A stretch of DNA of 64,000 nucleotides from Salinisphaera shabanensis E1L3A. Its GTDB lineage: Bacteria; Pseudomonadota; Gammaproteobacteria; Nevskiales; Salinisphaeraceae. The translations under genes and the position numbers were made by a program. Positions 8,175 through 36,041 of the stretch are shown here, piece by piece. The stretch covers positions 186,001-250,000 of the forward strand of contig NZ_AFNV02000003.1 of assembly GCF_000215955.2 (NCBI RefSeq), given 5' to 3'. The notes under the pieces are model-generated. The model ran no database searches and was not told the origin of the DNA. It saw nothing but the letters and a program-made list of their open reading frames with translations. Within the stretch, counting starts at the first letter, position 1. Every line of letters starts with the position of its first letter.

Positions 8175-8550
8175 CTGAGACGCCGGGGCGGCTCCGGTAC
8201 CCCGGCATCGCTCGATTCGCGCAGAACAGGCCGACCGCAATGCAACATCGCGGCCGGCGTTCGTGACGGTTTCGGTTCCGTTCCTTGCTTCGCCCGCGTT
8301 TGGGGCGCCGGCGCAAGCGATTGATAAGTCGAGCGTGTTCGCTTTGCTGAACGTCTAGCCGTGGCGACAAACGGGCAATTTGGGCCGCCCGCCCGCCGCG
8401 GCGTGCTTGACGCTGCACGCGGTACGATGAATTACTAAGCGCGTCAGTGGAATGACATTTCGTTTTAGTTCGCTGGCCGCAATAGAAGCAAAAATAAATA
8501 AGGCCCGCTCGCCCTTTACGGGTACCCGGCGAGGCCGCTCAGGAGGAGAA
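8175..8550. other. 376-base intergenic region
   Basis: No convincing coding frame lies between the dehydrogenase and the lipoprotein hydrolase. It holds a hairpin right after the dehydrogenase stop (8182-8206). The last 100 bases are AT-richer and presumably contain the hydrolase promoter. A short stem (CTCGCC at 8508-8513 with GGCGAG at 8528-8533) in the putative leader ends just before the strong AGGAGG site. Confidence 0.6.
8182..8206 (+). terminator. GC hairpin after the dehydrogenase gene, no T tract
   Basis: GCCGGGG (8182-8188) pairs with CCCCGGC (8200-8206) around an 11-base loop, starting 8 bases after the TAG. No run of T follows, so rho-independent termination is uncertain. It may protect the 3' end. 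Confidence 0.45.
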
Positions 8551-9969
8551 ATGAACGATTTACGCTGGACGCAAGTCCTGGCGCTCGCCTGCGCGAGTGT
8601 ATTGGTAGTGGGCTGTTCCGATAGTGGGGACAGCGACGATGACGTCGACGCGGGCAACGCGCAGCTGACCCGCGTACAGGACACGCGGCAGTTCAGCGTC
8701 GACCGCGATAAGTTGGCGTTCGGGGCGCTCAACGGTGTCGAATCCGACCGCTGGACGGGCGTGATGGCCAATGGGGCAGGCTATCGCGTGGAAGTGCCGG
8801 CCAGCGGGAACTGGAACGGCATGCTGGTGATGTACGCGCACGGCTATCGTGGCGAAGAAGGCGAATTGTCGGTCAGCAATCCGGCCTTGCGCGATTACTA
8901 CATCCGTAACGGCTATGCCTGGGCGGCCTCGAGCTATAGCAAGAACTATTACGACGTGCGTGCCGGCGTGGAAGATACCAACGCGCTGGCCAACGCCTTT
9001 GTCGATATCGCCGCAGAAAACGGGCGCACGCTGATGGCGCCGACCAAGATTTATATCACCGGCGATTCCATGGGTGGCCATGTCACCGCAGCCGCCATCG
9101 AACAGGAAACCCAGCTCGAGGCCGCCAACAAGGTGCGCTACGCCGGCGCCGTCGCACGCTGTGGCGTGGTAGGCGGCACCTACGAGTTCGACTATCTGCT
9201 TAATTTCACCTTTGCGGCCCAGCATGCCGCCGATATGGGGCCGACGCGCTATCCGGCCACCGATTTCAACCAGACCGAAATCGACGCCGTGCTCTGGTCG
9301 ACCGAACCCGGCTTTGGCCAGCAGGGTGTGCCGACCGCAGCCGGCGAGAAGCTCGAGAACATCGTACGTACGCTCAGCGGCGGCGACCGGCCCGTGTTCC
9401 AGCAGGGCTTTCGGGGCGGCTATTACGATGTGGTCATGGGCACCGGGGGCCGCGACGGCACGGTCAACGGTATTCTCGCTCGCGACCTGAGCGGCAATAT
9501 CGGCTATGAATATGACTACGACGGTGATCCGGAGTCGAGCACGGCCGAGGAAACGCAGTTCAACGAGTCGATATTGCGCGTGGCGGCCGATCCGAACGCC
9601 AATCCGGCGCGTAGCGATGGCGTACGCTGGATTCCGCGGGTCAACGGCCAGTTCAGCGTGCCCATGGTGACCCTCCATGGGCTGGGCGATCTCTACGTGC
9701 CGTTCGTGCACGAACAGATCTATCGCGAGCGTGCGCGTGACAACGGCAATGACGATCTGCTCGTACAGCGGGCCGTACGTGCCCCGGGCCATTGCGACTT
9801 CACCCAGGAAGAACGCCTGGCGGCCTTCGAGGACATGATCAACTGGGAACAGAACAGCGTGAAACCGGCGGGCGACGATGTCTCGCGCACAGCGGTTGCG
9901 GATGCGGACTATGGTTGTCAGTTCACCACGGCCGATCGCCAGGGCATCGCTGCCTGTCCGGCGCCCTGA
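8551..9969 (+). CDS. Secreted alpha/beta-hydrolase-like lipoprotein
   Basis: This is a 472-residue predicted lipoprotein. The signal peptide ends in the lipobox LVVGC with Cys22, followed by a strongly acidic tether (SDSGDSDDDVD). A serine-hydrolase nucleophile elbow GDSMGG has Ser173, and an oxyanion-type HG motif lies in MYAHGYRG near residue 97. A late GLGDLYVPF segment and HCDF could supply the acid and histidine of a triad. ATG 8551 is fixed by AGGAGG at 8541-8546. The substrate is unknown; it may be an esterase or polyester/oligomer hydrolase at the cell surface. A strong terminator follows, so it is probably monocistronic. Confidence 0.8.
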   Translation: MNDLRWTQVLALACASVLVVGCSDSGDSDDDVDAGNAQLTRVQDTRQFSVDRDKLAFGALNGVESDRWTGVMANGAGYRVEVPASGNWNGMLVMYAHGYRGEEGELSVSNPALRDYYIRNGYAWAASSYSKNYYDVRAGVEDTNALANAFVDIAAENGRTLMAPTKIYITGDSMGGHVTAAAIEQETQLEAANKVRYAGAVARCGVVGGTYEFDYLLNFTFAAQHAADMGPTRYPATDFNQTEIDAVLWSTEPGFGQQGVPTAAGEKLENIVRTLSGGDRPVFQQGFRGGYYDVVMGTGGRDGTVNGILARDLSGNIGYEYDYDGDPESSTAEETQFNESILRVAADPNANPARSDGVRWIPRVNGQFSVPMVTLHGLGDLYVPFVHEQIYRERARDNGNDDLLVQRAVRAPGHCDFTQEERLAAFEDMINWEQNSVKPAGDDVSRTAVADADYGCQFTTADRQGIAACPAP

Positions 9970-27169: not shown

Positions 27170-28363
27170 CTAGGTTTCCCAGGTTTCGGCGTAATCCTCG
27201 ACGTCGACGCCGTGGGTCCCGGGCGCGAGCATGCGATTGACGAAGAATTTGGGAAAACGCATGAGATCACGCACGCGCTGCGGGAAATAGCGGCGCTTCT
27301 TGTAGTCGAGCACCAACAGCACCGTCGGCTTTTCCTGGCGTTCCGGGGTCGGAATCACGAAGCCGACTTCGCCGGTATTGAGTTCGACCAACGTGCCGAC
27401 CGGGTACTCGCCGTGATAATCGGTGAACTGGCGCAGCAGCTCGTCGTTGAAATCGCCTTCGAAGCTCGACATCAGCTTGAGTGCTTCGGCAGGCGTGCGG
27501 CCCTTTTGGTAGATGCGGTCGCTGGTCATCGCATCGTAGACATCGGCGATCGCCACGATCTGGGTGTAGTAGGAAATTTCAGATCCGCGCAGTCCGGCCG
27601 GATAGCCGCGCCCGTTGAGTCGCTCGTGGTGGTCGCGCACGATATCCAGGCTGGCCGGGGTAAGCCCGGAAGCCTTCTGCAGGATCTCGACACCGTACTG
27701 CGGATGTTTCTTGATTTCGTCGTATTCGGCCTCGGTCAGCTTGCCGGGTTTGTTGAGGATGGCCAGCGGGACCTTGATTTTGCCGACATCGTGCAACAGC
27801 GCGCCGATGCCCATTTCCTTGATTGCGCGCTCGTCGTTGCCGACGAACGTCGCCAGCGACACCGCCTGCATGCATACGTTCAGGCTGTGGATGGCGGTGT
27901 ATTCGTCCCGGCTTTTGAGGTTGCTGAACCACACCAGCGCGTCCGGATGGCGGGCAACGCTATCCATCATCTGTTCCACTACCTCCGTGACGGCCGCGGT
28001 GTCGGGGCGCCGGTTTTCGGCGATTTCCTCGTGGATGGTGCGGATCAGACCGCGCGCGTTGCTGTGGATCTGGCGGGCTGCCGACAGCTCTTGGCGGAAC
28101 GAGCGCGGTGTGCGTTCCCCCAGCGGGGGGATCACGCCTTCGCCGTAGCCGGCGGGTGTCTTATCCTCCGCCGTCTCGGGTTCGTCGCTGCGAATATAGA
28201 CATACGCACACAGTGCGCGCAGTTCGTCGATGTCCTCGTCGGTGTTTACTTCTACGCCTTCAAGCAGATACGGCGTTTCCAGCCAAGGGCGATCGAGCGC
28301 CTCGACGTACATGCCGATGCGCAGGTCGCGGGTATCTATTTTTTTTCGGTGTAGGGCCATCAT
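27170..28363 (-). CDS. HD-GYP domain phosphodiesterase with DUF3391 N-terminus
   Basis: This 397-residue cytoplasmic protein is predicted to hydrolyse cyclic di-GMP. An N-terminal DUF3391 domain (IGMYVEALDRPWLETPYLL) precedes the HD-GYP domain, with HD at 191-192 in ALLHDVGKIKVP and the GYP signature HHERLNGRGYP at 245-255. The metal- and substrate-binding motifs look intact, so it should be active. There is no transmembrane segment. Two adjacent ATGs (28363, 28360) are possible starts; the longer frame upstream is Cys/Arg-rich and looks spurious. Confidence 0.92.
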   Translation of the reverse strand: MMALHRKKIDTRDLRIGMYVEALDRPWLETPYLLEGVEVNTDEDIDELRALCAYVYIRSDEPETAEDKTPAGYGEGVIPPLGERTPRSFRQELSAARQIHSNARGLIRTIHEEIAENRRPDTAAVTEVVEQMMDSVARHPDALVWFSNLKSRDEYTAIHSLNVCMQAVSLATFVGNDERAIKEMGIGALLHDVGKIKVPLAILNKPGKLTEAEYDEIKKHPQYGVEILQKASGLTPASLDIVRDHHERLNGRGYPAGLRGSEISYYTQIVAIADVYDAMTSDRIYQKGRTPAEALKLMSSFEGDFNDELLRQFTDYHGEYPVGTLVELNTGEVGFVIPTPERQEKPTVLLVLDYKKRRYFPQRVRDLMRFPKFFVNRMLAPGTHGVDVEDYAETWET

Positions 28364-28505
28364 CAAAAGGCTGCGGTGCGCGCAACTACAAAAGCATACA
28401 TGTCCAAAACACGTTATCGCGCGCGCTGCGTATAACTTGAGCGCATTTGTATGGCCCGGATCTGTATGCCGCCGTGTTTGTGGATGGGCAAGCCGCTGAC
28501 GGCTG

Positions 28506-29516
28506 CTAGCCGAGCTGCGCGGCCGCTGCGGCGCCGGACAGCCAGGCGCCCTCGACACGTCCGCCCGCCAGCCAGTCGCCCGCGAGTACGAGGCGGTCGT
28601 TCAGCGCAGCCTGGCAACGCATGTCGAGCGCCGTAGCGGCCGGACCAGGGCGCGCATAGCGCCAGCGATGGGTACGTACCAGACGCATCTGACGTGCCTG
28701 CAGGCCGGTGATATCGGCGAATTCGCGTGTGAGCGTCGCCGCGATCGATTCCGGCGTGTCTTCAAGGCGCGCGGCGCTGAACTCCGGTCCGGCATGAAGG
28801 GTCCACAGGCGCGCGTTGGTGCGTGTTTGGCCGGCCTTGTGGCTGTTATCGGCGCACCAGGATAACGGGCCGTCCTTGACGAAGATGGCCTGGCATTCGG
28901 CCAGGGCCGGCGCTGCGACGACCAGCGAATGACACGGCGAAAGCGCGTCATCAGCATTGGCGAGCGCCGGCAACGCGCCGGCGTAGTCGCCAAGCAGCGT
29001 CGCCGCCTGTACAGCCGGTGCAGTCAGCACGACCGCATCGGCATTGAAATAACCGTGTTCGCCGAGATCGGCGCGCCAGCCTTGGGTTGTTCGTTGCAGG
29101 CGGCGTACGCCCTGGCCGCAACGCACGTCGATATCGGCTTGTTCGAACAGATACCGTACCCAGTGATTGAGTCCGTCCGGCCCGATAAGGCGTTCCCGAT
29201 CGTCGGGAGAGGCGGTGAGTTGCCAGCCGTTGCGGCCCTGCTCGGCCATGCATACGGCCGGCGACCAGCGCGCGAGCACCCGGCTGGCGAGATCCCGTTC
29301 GACGCGCACGCGAAATGCCGGGTCGCGGGCGGTGAAATACTGGGCGCCGTAATCGAACCAAGGGCTGGCCGGGTCGACGGAAAGCCGGCGCGTAGCGCAA
29401 CGCCCGCCCGGCCGGCGGGCCTTGTCGACCACGACCACGTCCCAGCCGGCCTCGTCGAGCGCCAACGCTGCGCTTGCACCGGCGACGCCGGCGCCAATAA
29501 TGAGCACTTTAGCCAT
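28506..29516 (-). CDS. NAD(P)/FAD-dependent oxidoreductase, renalase-like
   Basis: This 336-residue flavoprotein opens with the dinucleotide-binding motif IIGAGVAGASAALALDEAG. RRPGGRCATRR follows and is typical of the amine-oxidase/renalase group. The FAD C-terminal motif LVLAGDWLAGGRVEGAWLSG is intact. Bacterial relatives oxidise isomeric dihydro-NAD(P) forms or amines, so the exact reaction is uncertain. ATG 29516 begins right at the Rossmann fold. It is divergent from the alpha/beta-hydrolase gene. Confidence 0.87.
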   Translation of the reverse strand: MAKVLIIGAGVAGASAALALDEAGWDVVVVDKARRPGGRCATRRLSVDPASPWFDYGAQYFTARDPAFRVRVERDLASRVLARWSPAVCMAEQGRNGWQLTASPDDRERLIGPDGLNHWVRYLFEQADIDVRCGQGVRRLQRTTQGWRADLGEHGYFNADAVVLTAPAVQAATLLGDYAGALPALANADDALSPCHSLVVAAPALAECQAIFVKDGPLSWCADNSHKAGQTRTNARLWTLHAGPEFSAARLEDTPESIAATLTREFADITGLQARQMRLVRTHRWRYARPGPAATALDMRCQAALNDRLVLAGDWLAGGRVEGAWLSGAAAAAQLG

Positions 29517-31740: not shown

Positions 31741-32907
31741 CTATTCCTGTGCCGGCTCGGGCGCGTCCGCCGGGGTGATTAGCGACCCCAGGTCTGCGCC
31801 GATATCGGCTGCCGCGACTCGCGCCCAGCGGAGCGGGTCGGCCACGGCCTCGGCGACCGAGCCGGCGCGCTCGACGAGCGTATAGCAGCCGGCAAAGTGT
31901 TGTCCCAGCTCGGTGCGTGCCTCGTCGGCGATCGCTCCCGACAGCAGCACCGTCGGTGTGGGTTTCGCTGCGTCGGCGATCGCCAGCGGCAGCTTGCCCG
32001 ATAGCGTTTGTGTGTCCGAACGGCCCTCGCCGGTGATTACCAGGTCCGCGTCGGCCAGGGTTTCGCGGAGTCCGGTCATGTCGAGCAGGGTATTCGCCCC
32101 GGAACACAATTCACCGCCGATCAACGCCAGTGCGAAGCCGAGACCGCCGGCAGCGCCACTGCCGGTCGCGGTCGCAAGCCCGGGCGGTGCCGCACTGTCG
32201 GCAAGGCGTATGAAGGCCGCTTCCACGGCTTCGATATCGGCGTCGCTCAAGCCTTTTTGCGGGCCGTAAACGCGGCTGGCACCACGCTCGCCAAGCAATG
32301 GGTTGTCGACATCGCAGAGCACGCGAATACGCGTTTTCTGTAGCCGCGCGTCCAGACCGGTGAGGTCGATACGGTCGAGCGCGAGCAGGCCATCCATCGT
32401 CGGTGCCACCTGCGTACCGTCGACCGCAGTGGCATGCGCGCCAAGTGCGCTGAGCAGGCCGAGGCCGGCATCGTTACAGGCGCTGCCACCGAGGCCGATA
32501 ACGAGATCGTGAATACCGGTATCCAGAGCAGCCGCAATGAGTTCGCCCAGCGCGTGGCTGCCACGTGCCTGCAGGCGTGGCGCGTTTGGCTGTGCTTCGA
32601 TCAGCGGCAGGCCGAGTACCTGTGCGGATTCGATTACCGCGGTGCCGGCCTGGTCACAGAACCAGGGGGCGTCGATACGTTCACCGTGGATGGCCAGGAT
32701 TGATGTGCTTTGCCAGGCCACGTCACGTCCGGCGGCAAGACAGTCGAGCGTGCCTTCACCGCCGTCGGCCATCGGGGCGAGCGTCAGGCGTGCATGGGGC
32801 CAGGCCGTTTGCAGACCTTCCGCCAATGCATGCGCAATCTCGAGCGCGCTCGCGCTGCCCTTGTAGCTGTCGGGTGCGAGCACGATATGCGGCGCTTGGG
32901 TACTCAT
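31741..32907 (-). CDS. Glycerate kinase (GlxK/GarK type)
   Basis: This 388-residue enzyme phosphorylates glycerate, giving 2-phosphoglycerate in the type I (GlxK/GarK) family. The N-terminal APDSYKGSASALEIAHALAE, MADGGEGTLDCL, and GLGGSACNDAGLGLLSALGA are diagnostic. DLVITGEGRSDTQTLSGK lies in the C-terminal part. The glycerate source could be glyoxylate/tartronate metabolism or the glucosylglycerate released about 10 kb away by the GH13 phosphorylase; the latter is inference. The gene stands alone and is convergent with mlaA. Confidence 0.9.
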   Translation of the reverse strand: MSTQAPHIVLAPDSYKGSASALEIAHALAEGLQTAWPHARLTLAPMADGGEGTLDCLAAGRDVAWQSTSILAIHGERIDAPWFCDQAGTAVIESAQVLGLPLIEAQPNAPRLQARGSHALGELIAAALDTGIHDLVIGLGGSACNDAGLGLLSALGAHATAVDGTQVAPTMDGLLALDRIDLTGLDARLQKTRIRVLCDVDNPLLGERGASRVYGPQKGLSDADIEAVEAAFIRLADSAAPPGLATATGSGAAGGLGFALALIGGELCSGANTLLDMTGLRETLADADLVITGEGRSDTQTLSGKLPLAIADAAKPTPTVLLSGAIADEARTELGQHFAGCYTLVERAGSVAEAVADPLRWARVAAADIGADLGSLITPADAPEPAQE

Positions 32908-32998: not shown

Positions 32999-34357
32999 AT
33001 GGCAACGGGAAAACGCGTAATGGCGCTGGCATTCGTCGATCATAACGCGTCGGTGCTGATCGTGGCTTCCAGCCGCGATATTGCCGCGCCGGTGCTGGAC
33101 TATCTTTTCGATCAGGGCGTGGCGTTCGTGTTCAGTCGTCCGGCCGATCTGGCTATCGGTGGTGCGCGGCTCAAGGCGCGCTACCGCATGGCGGTTGTGC
33201 TCGACCTGGATATCGGTGAGCGCATACGCGAGTCGGCACAGCTGCTGGCGCGACAGCTGCCCTGTGTCATCGTCAGCGATGGGCCGGTTTTTCGACGCGA
33301 CGATTTTCGTGCGGTGCTGCATACGGATACGTCGCCGATTGAACTGTTCACCACCATACAGGGTGTGTTGAGCGAGCGATCCGTTGGCAAGGCGCTGACC
33401 GGGGATACGCCGGCGATAAGACAGGTGCGGTGGCTGATCGAGCGGGTTGCCCAGAAGGCGACGCCGGTTTTGTTGACCGGCGAAGTGGGTGTGGGCAAGG
33501 CCGTGGCAGCCCGTGAAATTCATCGCTGTTCGACGCGCCGCGGATCATTGGTCACGGTTCAGTGTGCCGCGATAGGCGATGCCGGGGTGGATGCGGCGCT
33601 ATTCGGGGTATCGGCCAGCGACGGCGGCTATTTGCAGGCCGCGGCCGGGGGCACATTGGTACTGGATGAGATCACGGATCTTTCGCCGGTATTTCAGGCA
33701 CGCGTGCTGCAGCTGCTCAAGACGGGCAGCTACGAGCGTCCCGGCGAAGCAAGCGGCCGGCCGTTGAATGCACGCGTGATCGCAACCACGCGCCGATCGC
33801 TCAACGAGATGCTCGATACCGGCCAGCTGCGTCCGGATCTTTATTACGAGCTGGCGGTGTTTCCGATCCATTTGCCGCCCCTGCGTGAACGCCGTGACGA
33901 TATCGAAGCGCTTATCGATGGGCTGGGTGCCGGCCTGCCTGGTGCGATGCCGCGTTTTGATGCCCAGGCGATCATCGAGCTCAAACGATATGCGTGGCCG
34001 GGCAACGTGCAGGAATTGTCCAATCTCATCGAGCGGTTGGCCATTCTTTACCCGCAGACCACGGTGGATAGGAAGACGCTCGAACCCTATCTGCGGCCCG
34101 GCACCAGGCCACCCACGCTTATGTCGGTACCTGAGCCCGTGATCGATGAGAGCCAGCCGGCGGACCGGATTGCCACCATGAGGCTGCCGGAAGATGGGGT
34201 GGATCTGCGTGAGCTGTCCGAACGTCTGGAAAAACAGCTGATTGAGCAGGCACTTGCACGTCATGATCACGTGGTGGCCCACGCTGCGCGGGCGCTGGGG
34301 CTGCGCCGGACGACATTGACGGAAAAGCTGCGTCGCTACGCGATCCGTACGGATTGA
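32999..34357 (+). CDS. FleQ-like AAA+ enhancer-binding regulator lacking the GAFTGA loop
   Basis: This 452-residue regulator has a FleQ-type N-terminal domain (SVLIVASSRDIAAPVLDYLF). An AAA+ domain follows with Walker A GEVGVGKA (FleQ and relatives have GKE) and Walker B GGTLVLDEIT. A Fis-type HTH ends it (HDHVVAHAARALGLRRTTL). The segment between ALFG and GGTL is only 13 residues (VSASDGGYLQAAA), about eight shorter than usual, and the sigma-54-contacting GAFTGA motif is absent. DLYYEL replaces the common DLYYRL. It may act with sigma-70, like VpsR, or as a repressor/antagonist. ATG 33020 is an alternative start. Confidence 0.85.
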   Translation: MATGKRVMALAFVDHNASVLIVASSRDIAAPVLDYLFDQGVAFVFSRPADLAIGGARLKARYRMAVVLDLDIGERIRESAQLLARQLPCVIVSDGPVFRRDDFRAVLHTDTSPIELFTTIQGVLSERSVGKALTGDTPAIRQVRWLIERVAQKATPVLLTGEVGVGKAVAAREIHRCSTRRGSLVTVQCAAIGDAGVDAALFGVSASDGGYLQAAAGGTLVLDEITDLSPVFQARVLQLLKTGSYERPGEASGRPLNARVIATTRRSLNEMLDTGQLRPDLYYELAVFPIHLPPLRERRDDIEALIDGLGAGLPGAMPRFDAQAIIELKRYAWPGNVQELSNLIERLAILYPQTTVDRKTLEPYLRPGTRPPTLMSVPEPVIDESQPADRIATMRLPEDGVDLRELSERLEKQLIEQALARHDHVVAHAARALGLRRTTLTEKLRRYAIRTD

Positions 34358-34516
34358 CGGCCCCGCGACGTTAAGCTGACGCATCGCTGTCTTTCATCGT
34401 CAATAAGTGACGCCTAGCGTCATAATATTGTCGTTTAGGCGCCGACCTTTGCGGGCGAGTGGCCTATTTTTGTCACTCTATACTGTAAGTTGCTGAATAT
34501 AAATGCTACTTCAAAC

Positions 34517-34532
34517 GGGCACGACGATTGCA
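34517..34532 (+). promoter_or_regulatory. Sigma-54 promoter upstream of fliA
   Basis: GGGCACG (34517-34523), 4 bases, TTGCA (34528-34532) matches TGGCACG-N4-TTGCW at all but the first position. The GG and GC dinucleotides are 12 bases apart as required for -24/-12 elements. Transcription would begin near 34543, about 100 bases before the fliA start. Confidence 0.75.
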
Positions 34533-34642: not shown

Positions 34643-35359
34643 ATGCACGCGGCACTACACACTCGGAACCCGGTCCAGGAGATCGGTCTGGTCGTCGATG
34701 AGAACCTGGAGCTGGTCAAACGTATCGCTTGGCGGTTGCATCAGCGCCTGCCGGACTGTGTCCAGATCGAGGATTTGATCCAGGCTGGAACCATAGGCCT
34801 GCTTGAAGCCTGGGAGCGTTACGAGTCCGGCGAGGACGCCAGTTTCGCAACGTTCGCCGGTATTCGTATCCGCGGAGCGATGCTCGATGAGATTCGCCGC
34901 GGCGACTGGGCGCCGCGTTCGCTGCATCGGGCTGCACGAGCGGTCAAACAGGCACGCTCCGACGTGGAACGTCGCTGTGGGCGGGCTGTACCCAGCACCG
35001 AAGTGGCCGCAGAAATGGGCATGCCGCTCAACGAGTATCGACGCTTGTGTGACGACGTTGCGTTGGCACATGTGGCCAGTCTCGACTCCACGCTTTCGGA
35101 TCAGCCGTCGTTGGAAGTCTCGGCCGGCGTCGAGTTCGCGCCCGAAGCCGCGGTCGAGTACCAGGATATGTGCGAAGCGGTGCAACGGGCGGCAACCAAG
35201 CTGCCCGAGCGCGAACAGCTGCTCATGCATCTCTACTATGAAAGCGGCCATAACCTGCGTCAGATTGCGGAACACCTGGGCGTGTCCGAGTCGCGGGTAT
35301 GTCAGCTGCATGGGCGGGCGATCCGCCAGATTCGTAAATTGCTTGGCGAAGCGGCCTGA
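34643..35359 (+). CDS. fliA: Flagellar sigma factor FliA (sigma-28)
   Basis: This 238-residue sigma factor has region 2 (CVQIEDLIQAGTIGLLEAWE, ATFAGIRIRGAMLDEIRRGD with the W of DWAPRSL) and region 4 (LPEREQLLMHLYYESGHNL and GVSESRVCQLHGRAI). These match FliA of gammaproteobacteria, which directs late flagellar and chemotaxis genes. A sigma-54 promoter lies upstream and a UUCG-loop terminator downstream, so it is probably a monocistronic class II/III flagellar gene. In most gammaproteobacteria fliA sits in a flhF-fleN-fliA-che cluster; none of those genes is here. Confidence 0.93.
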   Translation: MHAALHTRNPVQEIGLVVDENLELVKRIAWRLHQRLPDCVQIEDLIQAGTIGLLEAWERYESGEDASFATFAGIRIRGAMLDEIRRGDWAPRSLHRAARAVKQARSDVERRCGRAVPSTEVAAEMGMPLNEYRRLCDDVALAHVASLDSTLSDQPSLEVSAGVEFAPEAAVEYQDMCEAVQRAATKLPEREQLLMHLYYESGHNLRQIAEHLGVSESRVCQLHGRAIRQIRKLLGEAA

Positions 35360-35513: not shown

Positions 35514-36041
35514 ATGTTCTATTTCGCCTACGGCTCGAACATGCTGATCGCCCGATTGGCCGAGCGTGTACCCAGTGTGCGCCCGGCTGGCCGGGCCTGG
35601 CTCGTCGGCCATCAACTGCATTTTCATTTGAGCGGCAGCGACGAATCGGGCAAGTGCAATGTGCTGCATACCGGCAACGACAGCGATATCGTGCACGGTG
35701 CGCTGTACGAGTTGGACGCCGAGCGTCTTGATCGATTGCATGCGGCCGAAGGCCCGCCGTATGTCTTTCTCGAGCTCGATGTGGGTACGCCGGATGGTGT
35801 GGTGCGTGCCGCCACTTATCGGGGCCGGCCTGAATATCTGGACGACGCGCTCGTGCCTTTCGATTGGTATCGCGACTTCGTCACCCATGGCGCACGCGAG
35901 CATGGGTTGCCGCCAGACTACGTCGCGCGCCTGGAAGGCGTGACGACGTGGCGCGATCCTGACGAACAGCGCGCGCAGCACAATCGCCGAATCCTGCAGC
36001 ACCAGGCGACGAACGTCATACGTGACCCGGTAAGGAATTAG
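35514..36041 (+). CDS. Gamma-glutamylcyclotransferase-like protein (AIG2/GGCT fold)
   Basis: This 175-residue cytoplasmic protein opens with FYFAYGSNM, the substrate-binding YGSN loop of gamma-glutamylcyclotransferases. The acidic residue expected for catalysis lies in HAAEGPPYVF near residue 81. These enzymes cyclise gamma-glutamyl groups to 5-oxoproline, for example in glutathione turnover. The length and motif order match the GGCT family. It is a stand-alone gene between fliA and the convergent glycosyltransferase gene. The true substrate is not certain. Confidence 0.82.
   Translation: MFYFAYGSNMLIARLAERVPSVRPAGRAWLVGHQLHFHLSGSDESGKCNVLHTGNDSDIVHGALYELDAERLDRLHAAEGPPYVFLELDVGTPDGVVRAATYRGRPEYLDDALVPFDWYRDFVTHGAREHGLPPDYVARLEGVTTWRDPDEQRAQHNRRILQHQATNVIRDPVRN

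Follow-up and report, generated by a model that had tools for sequence, protein, structure and literature searches.

A FleQ-lineage regulator without the GAFTGA loop beside a σ28-family paralogue in Salinisphaera

Enhancer-binding proteins (EBPs) without the GAFTGA motif are a known kind, and TyrR, DhaR, HupR, VpsR and YplP are named as examples in the account given by PMC3162934. The GAFTGA-less NtrC proteins of Rhodobacter capsulatus and Caulobacter, as well as VpsR, have been reported to act at σ70 promoters (PMC10274813), and VpsR of Vibrio, in which a receiver-like domain is followed by an AAA+ domain and an HTH, binds c-di-GMP (PMC10714721). FleQ, in turn, is kept in Azotobacter vinelandii although FlhDC runs the flagella of this bacterium, as the title of PMC2885672 indicates. 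In the extracts available from the literature on FleQ with GAFTGA or on Salinisphaera, no GAFTGA-less protein of the FleQ lineage was found in print.

Such a protein is encoded in the window analysed here, a stretch of 64,000 nucleotides from the genome of Salinisphaera shabanensis E1L3A, where it lies next to a gene for a sigma factor of the σ28 family.

The regulator, its shortened loop and its motor

The regulator, GAFTGA-less and of the lineage of a second FleQ (FleQ2), comprises 452 amino acids and is encoded at 32999..34357 on the forward strand, as judged from translation, Pfam and alignment; the ATG at 33020 may be its true start, and the orthologue listed for the related genome G011 begins there. 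Its translation runs from ALFG through the 13 residues VSASDGGYLQAAA (loop 1, 33608..33646, +) to GGTLVLDEIT, and the equivalent stretch of Pseudomonas aeruginosa FleQ holds 21 residues in the alignment, GAFTGA included. Moreover, Walker A ends in GKA, and DLYYEL stands where DLYYRL is expected. These features had been described in an earlier, sequence-only reading of the locus, which had also called the C-terminal HTH FleQ-like, and both the translation and the assignment to the FleQ lineage by sequence match and tree bear it out.

Pfam recognizes Sigma54_activat (PF00158, 126.7 bits), an AAA+ lid and HTH_8 in the regulator, with no match to PF06490, the FleQ N-terminal domain, at E ≤ 0.1. 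The N-terminal domain (residues 17-127, 33047..33379, +) shows in the model a receiver-like succession of strands and helices, and the AAA+ core (residues 133-291, 33395..33871, +) is supported by Pfam, structure match and sequence match. The FleQ-type HTH (residues 397-450, 34187..34348, +), the most constrained part of the protein, aligns with the HTH of FleQ and has the recognition helix RRTTLxEKxRxY in common with it. By sequence, the nearest solved structures are FleQ (8p53, E 4.4e-58) and FlrA (26jl, 2.9e-47), and the match to VpsR is much weaker (E 2.5e-27). The AlphaFold model is of middling quality (mean pLDDT 75.6, pTM 0.53, seven sequences) and, thus, its domain folds alone were used, namely the receiver-like N-domain, the AAA+ core and the HTH. 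The AAA+ fold agrees with that of FleQ at Z 28.9-29.4 and 2.0-2.2 Å over 237-239 residues, and many other EBPs come next at Z 25-27.

Full-length orthologues are present in 5 of the 14 Salinisphaera genomes, the one analysed here included, with identities to the window protein of 61% (G011), about 57-58% (G008) and 46% (G003 and G004). GAFTGA is absent from all five, which represent four distinct proteins, since those of G003 and G004 were printed alike; G004 was for this reason omitted from the protein and promoter alignments, although it was included in the promoter-site counts. The loops that lack the motif measure 13 residues in the window protein and in G008, 16 in G011 and 21, as in FleQ, in G003 and G004. 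The absence of GAFTGA is a true loss and not a sequencing error, because other distinct orthologues also lack the motif.

The positions of the motor residues follow the FleQ numbering of PMC10723142. The Walker A lysine (equivalent to K180) and R300 are kept in all four distinct orthologues. At the position of E181, the Walker A Glu, the window protein, G011, G008 and G003 have A/H/S/T, respectively, and in the same order sensor II R363 is represented by Q/R/H/R, R306 by E/Q/E/R, R260 by Q/R/Q/R and Walker B by DE/DE/EE/DG. The catalytic set of the window protein, read from its sequence, therefore retains DE and R300, with Gln in place of sensor II R363 and Glu in place of R306. Among 25 canonical FleQs, mean identity is 81% in the AAA+ core and 74% in the HTH, whereas this order is reversed among the regulators, with 51% in the AAA+ core and 74% in the HTH. 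The difference between HTH and AAA+ identity amounts to +14 to +32 points in six of six regulator pairs, whereas in 300 pairs of canonical FleQs it ranges from -17 to +6.5 and does not reach +10 in any (0/300). Rough dN/dS values for the window protein against G008, G011 and G003 are 0.03, 0.06 and 0.27 in the HTH, 0.18, 0.42 and 0.37 in the AAA+ part, 0.71, 0.30 and 0.42 in the N-domain, and 0.04, 0.06 and 0.21 over the whole FliA2 gene; dS, at about 0.8-2, is close to saturation in these comparisons, and in the G003 pair the constraint on the HTH scarcely exceeds that on the AAA+ part. The comparison of these sequences indicates that the AAA+ motor of the regulator is eroding and that its FleQ-type HTH is held.

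Ancestry and distribution

The locus is marked by two conserved flanking genes, recognized by comparison of loci, one at 31741..32907 (-), which we take to be glycerate-kinase-like, and the other at 35514..36041 (+), presumably gamma-glutamylcyclotransferase-like (GGCT-like). The genome G082, which belongs to another genus of the same family, carries two FleQs, one of them inside its flagellar cluster. The second, FleQ2, keeps GAFTGA and lies next to FliA2, flanked by the neighbours that the regulator has in the window, the order being glycerate-kinase-like gene, FleQ2, FliA2 and GGCT-like gene. With the orthologue profile, G082 FleQ2 scores 6.9e-109, the best value outside the genus among the matches listed, in which other FleQ-like proteins from many of the 85 genomes of the order have E values of about 5e-90 to 1e-101 and the best further protein within the genus reaches 1.2e-68. 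All 31 FleQ-like rows from the order, among them four repeats and the NtrC-like L108, keep GAFTGA. In a tree of 33 rows, from which L078 and L105-L107 (repeats of other rows) and the NtrC-like L108 were left out, the regulators form a clade (100/100) and are joined by G082 FleQ2 (96/92), a join at which long branches meet. Gene order is an independent support for this kinship. The loss of GAFTGA throughout the genus, together with its retention in the G082 orthologue of the same gene order, argues that the regulator is an in-place descendant of FleQ2 and would be σ54-incompetent.

Among the best 80 loci of a scan of named genomes, only L133 (Salinisphaera sp. NP40) is a full-length GAFTGA-less protein of the FleQ type. 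L147, L154, L160, L179, L203 and L205 likewise have no GAFTGA-like motif, but their HTH differs from the FleQ type and they were set aside; from their look, we assume that they are NtrX-like.

Within the genus, the regulator is missing from the FliA2 locus in three of eight genomes (G006, G012 and G013), and in G006 a 31-nt fragment of its 5' end survives, with 94% identity to the gene of G008 (E 1.8e-8). It was found in none of the six genus genomes that lack FliA2. Three genomes are only 81-87% complete and, thus, single absences are uncertain. The gene has been lost at least once in the genus, probably twice or more and, therefore, its role is dispensable. There is, apparently, a graded series that leads from the intact GAFTGA of the sister genus through loops of 21, 16 and 13 residues without the motif to loss of the gene, a series in which an AAA+ σ54 activator sheds its motor while the DNA-binding end stays. 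A further gene near the regulator (27170-28558 of the window), the product of which we take by its motif to be an HD-GYP-like protein, is matched in the loci of G006, G008 and G011 and not in those of G003, G004, G012 and G013.

FliA2, its promoter and the search for an activator

FliA2 (238 aa, 34643..35359, +) is identified by the σ28 family model (TIGR02479, 227.6 bits vs a cut-off of 189.6). It occurs in 8 of the 14 genus genomes, and among the 85 genomes of the order only these eight and G082 give matches at 60% identity or more. Two FliA-type sigma factors exceed the family cut-off in the window's genome; the second (C14:13763-14422) shares its contig with flagellins, flagellar operons and the matches to FlhA and FlgM. 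The flagellar genes are on this contig, C14, and none are in the regulator locus. The neighbour of the regulator, which the sequence-only reading had named fliA, is thus indeed a σ28-family gene, but it is the paralogue FliA2 and not the flagellar fliA, which sits on C14 beside the flagellins. FlhC is encoded in the window's genome, the one in which it was sought, and the flagellum is therefore probably run by FlhDC; a scan for σ54 sites of at least 10/11 found none on C14. Moreover, neither FlhA nor FlgM had a match in G003, G004 and G011, three of the eight FliA2 genomes, which carry both the regulator and FliA2. The regulator/FliA2 cascade is therefore probably non-flagellar, and the σ28 paralogue has apparently been retained in these genomes without a flagellum or FlgM.

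FliA2 targets were sought by scanning for σ28 promoters. The pattern TAAA-N14-17-GCCGATAA was matched 23 times across 14 genomes and 16 times in the reversed control, and TAAAG-N14-17-CGATAW gave, in the flagellum-less FliA2 genomes vs control, 0 vs 5 (G003), 3 vs 5 (G004) and 5 vs 5 (G011); no FliA2 targets emerged from these scans. At L070:14771-18553, three similar flagellin genes stand in tandem, each after TAAAG-N15-VCGATAT, which varies from the usual σ28 promoter.

A σ54 -24/-12 type site had been proposed in front of this neighbour, and one is found there: GGGCACGACGATTGC (34517-34531, +) has 10 of the 11 consensus bases and is conserved in related genomes. The element aligns in seven genus genomes, where it reads GGGCACGACGATTGC in the window's genome and in G006, CGGCACGTCGTTTGC in G011, GGGCATGCCGATTGC in G008, AGGCACGGCGTTTGC in G003, AGGCACGGTTTCTGC in G013 and TGGCTGATAGTTTGC in G012; that before FliA2 in G082 is CGGCACACCGATTGC. 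An array of GTCA/TGAC/TGTC half-sites with a spacing of 9-11 bp (34388..34432) includes GTCAATAAGTGAC (34399) and TGACGCCTAGCGTCA (34408-34422). With G004 and G082 counted, a σ54 site of at least 9/11 occurs in eight of nine genomes (G012 has 8/11) and in 5.2% of the controls, an exact GTCA/TGAC inverted repeat in eight of nine (not G011) and in 3.3%, and both together in 0.5% of the control windows, which were 4248 overlapping windows on both strands of the same loci and included the promoters themselves. Relative to the σ54 element, half-sites lie at about -119, -109 and -98 in the window's genome, G008 and G011, and at -88 in the window's genome and G011. These half-sites resemble the FleQ motif GTCaNTAAAtTGAC (PMC8125075, PMC6120874), although the box of the window has 13 bases, one fewer than the 14-base Pseudomonas motif, which a ChIP study describes as unreliable genome-wide (PMC6120874). 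The σ54 site and half-sites persist in the three genomes without the regulator, even if G006 keeps just -109 and -98 of those listed and G013 has an inverted repeat at -54 instead. Therefore, something other than the regulator must fire the fliA2 promoter, and the boxes may serve another protein.

The sequence-only reading had suggested looking for a second, GAFTGA-containing FleQ. None was found elsewhere in the window's genome (97.5% complete), where the nine other clear PF00158 proteins have no FleQ-type HTH as far as their C-terminal ends are readable. Among 43 EBP loci retrieved from the 13 other genus genomes, 32 have their nearest counterpart in the window's genome in NtrC, PilR or GlrR, in many cases at an identity of just 40-50%, and no exclusive EBP partner tracking the regulator or FliA2 was found in these 43 loci. 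A regulator of the C34:130429 type (GAFTNA) is present in seven of the eight FliA2 genomes by match length, G012 being the exception, and sequence confirms it in five of the other six (G004 not among them); shared ancestry may account for its tracking of FliA2.

Several unusual frames were seen among the loci compared. L056:9575-11389 encodes a response-regulator-type EBP with GAFTNA and FLNEIG replacing GAFTGA and FLDEIG, a kind found, by match length, in seven of eight FliA2 genomes and in none of the six without FliA2. An odd AAA+ family of 434-483 aa, with CGHVSGAFPGA-like loops, FLDESHG at Walker B and a distant PF00158 match, comprises L051:7530-8864 (G007), L052:5291-6595 (G013), L054:6607-7995 (G011), L055:5049-6500 (G003) and L053:5982-6458 (G004), the last being listed as just a 158-aa piece with an in-frame TAG. 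In the window's genome, an EBP frame at G000:C23:22558-23379 (L063) contains one in-frame TAA, and a close relative, L023 in G008 (87% over 225 aa), has no such stop.

Proposed mechanism and known systems

The best reading, put forward tentatively, is that the regulator is a DNA-binding modulator of fliA2, probably an anti-activator or repressor; it probably controls genes by DNA binding alone. Both the GAFTGA loop and several of the ATPase residues are gone from FleQ2 in the Salinisphaera lineage and, given the established role of this loop, remodelling of the σ54-RNA polymerase should have ceased. The constrained FleQ-type HTH is retained, and binding to the GTCA/TGAC half-sites, which lie some 90-130 bp in front of the fliA2 σ54 promoter, has most likely persisted. 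By occupying these sites the regulator would then modulate fliA2 and, in the likeliest case, repress it or counteract an intact EBP that now fires this promoter, the direction of the effect being uncertain. In three of eight genomes FliA2 and its promoter have survived the regulator, which is found in none of the six FliA2-less genomes; this pattern suits a modulator better than a required activator.

The main rival, on the unlikely side, is a σ70-dependent activator of the kind of VpsR or GAFTGA-less NtrC, perhaps nucleotide-bound, that acts at fliA2 or elsewhere. The precedents at σ70 promoters speak for it, as does the loop 1 deletion of Caulobacter NtrC, which at eight residues equals that of the regulator (PMC10274813). 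The invariant Walker A lysine and R300 imply that nucleotide binding may matter. However, the conserved adjacent promoter is of the σ54 type, and FliA2 persists in the three genomes from which the regulator is gone. It is improbable, though compatible with the retained σ54 promoter and half-sites, that the regulator enters mixed rings or complexes in which it gives DNA binding and an intact GAFTGA-containing EBP gives the σ54 contact. Caulobacter NtrC mutants without GAFTGA and DNA binding are reported to raise σ54-dependent flagellar genes (PMC12421884), but in the three regulator-less genomes the promoter has survived the loss of one member of such a complex, and no partner tracked the regulator among the loci compared.

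There is a similarly small chance that the regulator is a decaying remnant with its function gone. Its motor residues differ among orthologues, it has disappeared from three FliA2 loci, and over its full length it has diverged faster than its neighbours (57% identity with G008 and 61% with G011, vs 90% and 86% for FliA2). Against decay stand the open frames in five genomes at identities down to 46% and the low HTH dN/dS of the two closer pairs. A flagellar antagonist or a c-di-GMP sensor acting on flagellar genes is very improbable. The FleQ lineage and the flagellated state of the window's genome would fit it and, among the FleQ c-di-GMP contacts R138, R144, R151, R185, E330 and R334, the window protein retains R185 (the published E332 was not counted, there being an isoleucine at that number). 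The other five contacts are changed, a weak test because the flagellar FleQ of G082 itself keeps only 2/6 and G082 FleQ2 3/6, so that these residues speak neither for nor against c-di-GMP sensing as such. An antagonist, as the sequence-only reading had envisaged, is plausible in itself, but its flagellar setting does not hold in view of FlhC, the fliA on C14 and the three genomes without FlhA or FlgM. Finally, a sequencing or assembly error that deleted the GAFTGA segment, named at the outset as a possible undoing of the case, has a negligible probability and is contradicted by the independent orthologues of four other genomes, with their differing loop lengths.

The modulator reading can be extended to a history that is possible, if rather doubtful: a non-flagellar FleQ-FliA duplicate is carried by Salinisphaeraceae, its activator became, in place and within the genus Salinisphaera, an anti-activator of its own former σ54 target, and the σ54 promoter was kept and handed to another activator. 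If true, the motor and σ54 loop decayed while DNA binding was held. Since the promoter and the partner sigma factor are still there to serve as an internal control, the change from activator to modulator would be directly testable.

The regulator has the domain order of FleQ and FlrA, its closest sequence matches among solved structures, but it differs from them in the missing GAFTGA, in several ATPase residues, in most of the listed c-di-GMP contacts and in a locus outside any flagellar cluster. The resemblance to the G082 locus extends to the region in front of FliA2, with its σ54 site and its GTCA boxes, whereas G082 FleQ2 has intact GAFTGA and checked ATPase residues. Unlike the window, G082 (L103, where FleQ2 ends at 9073 and FliA2 at 8317) also has a small HTH-type frame between the σ54 site and FliA2, which ends in an HTH resembling the C terminus of an EBP. 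VpsR, already invoked by the sequence-only reading, is an apt comparison in that VpsR-like proteins are likewise GAFTGA-less and share the domain order; the fold match of 7v2b_D to the model has a Z of 25.5, but at 18.2 Å across several domains. With the σ70-acting GAFTGA-less EBPs in general, the regulator shares the lack of GAFTGA and the retention of AAA+ and HTH, whereas GAFTGA-less NtrC is of another lineage, serves nitrogen control and is not paired with a σ28 paralogue. The regulator is a FleQ homologue, but since it lacks some of the defining features for which it was tested, it is classed neither as a functional FleQ nor as a σ54 activator. Thus, while GAFTGA-less activators are already known, what is new here is an EBP of this kind that belongs to the FleQ lineage and stands beside a σ28 paralogue.
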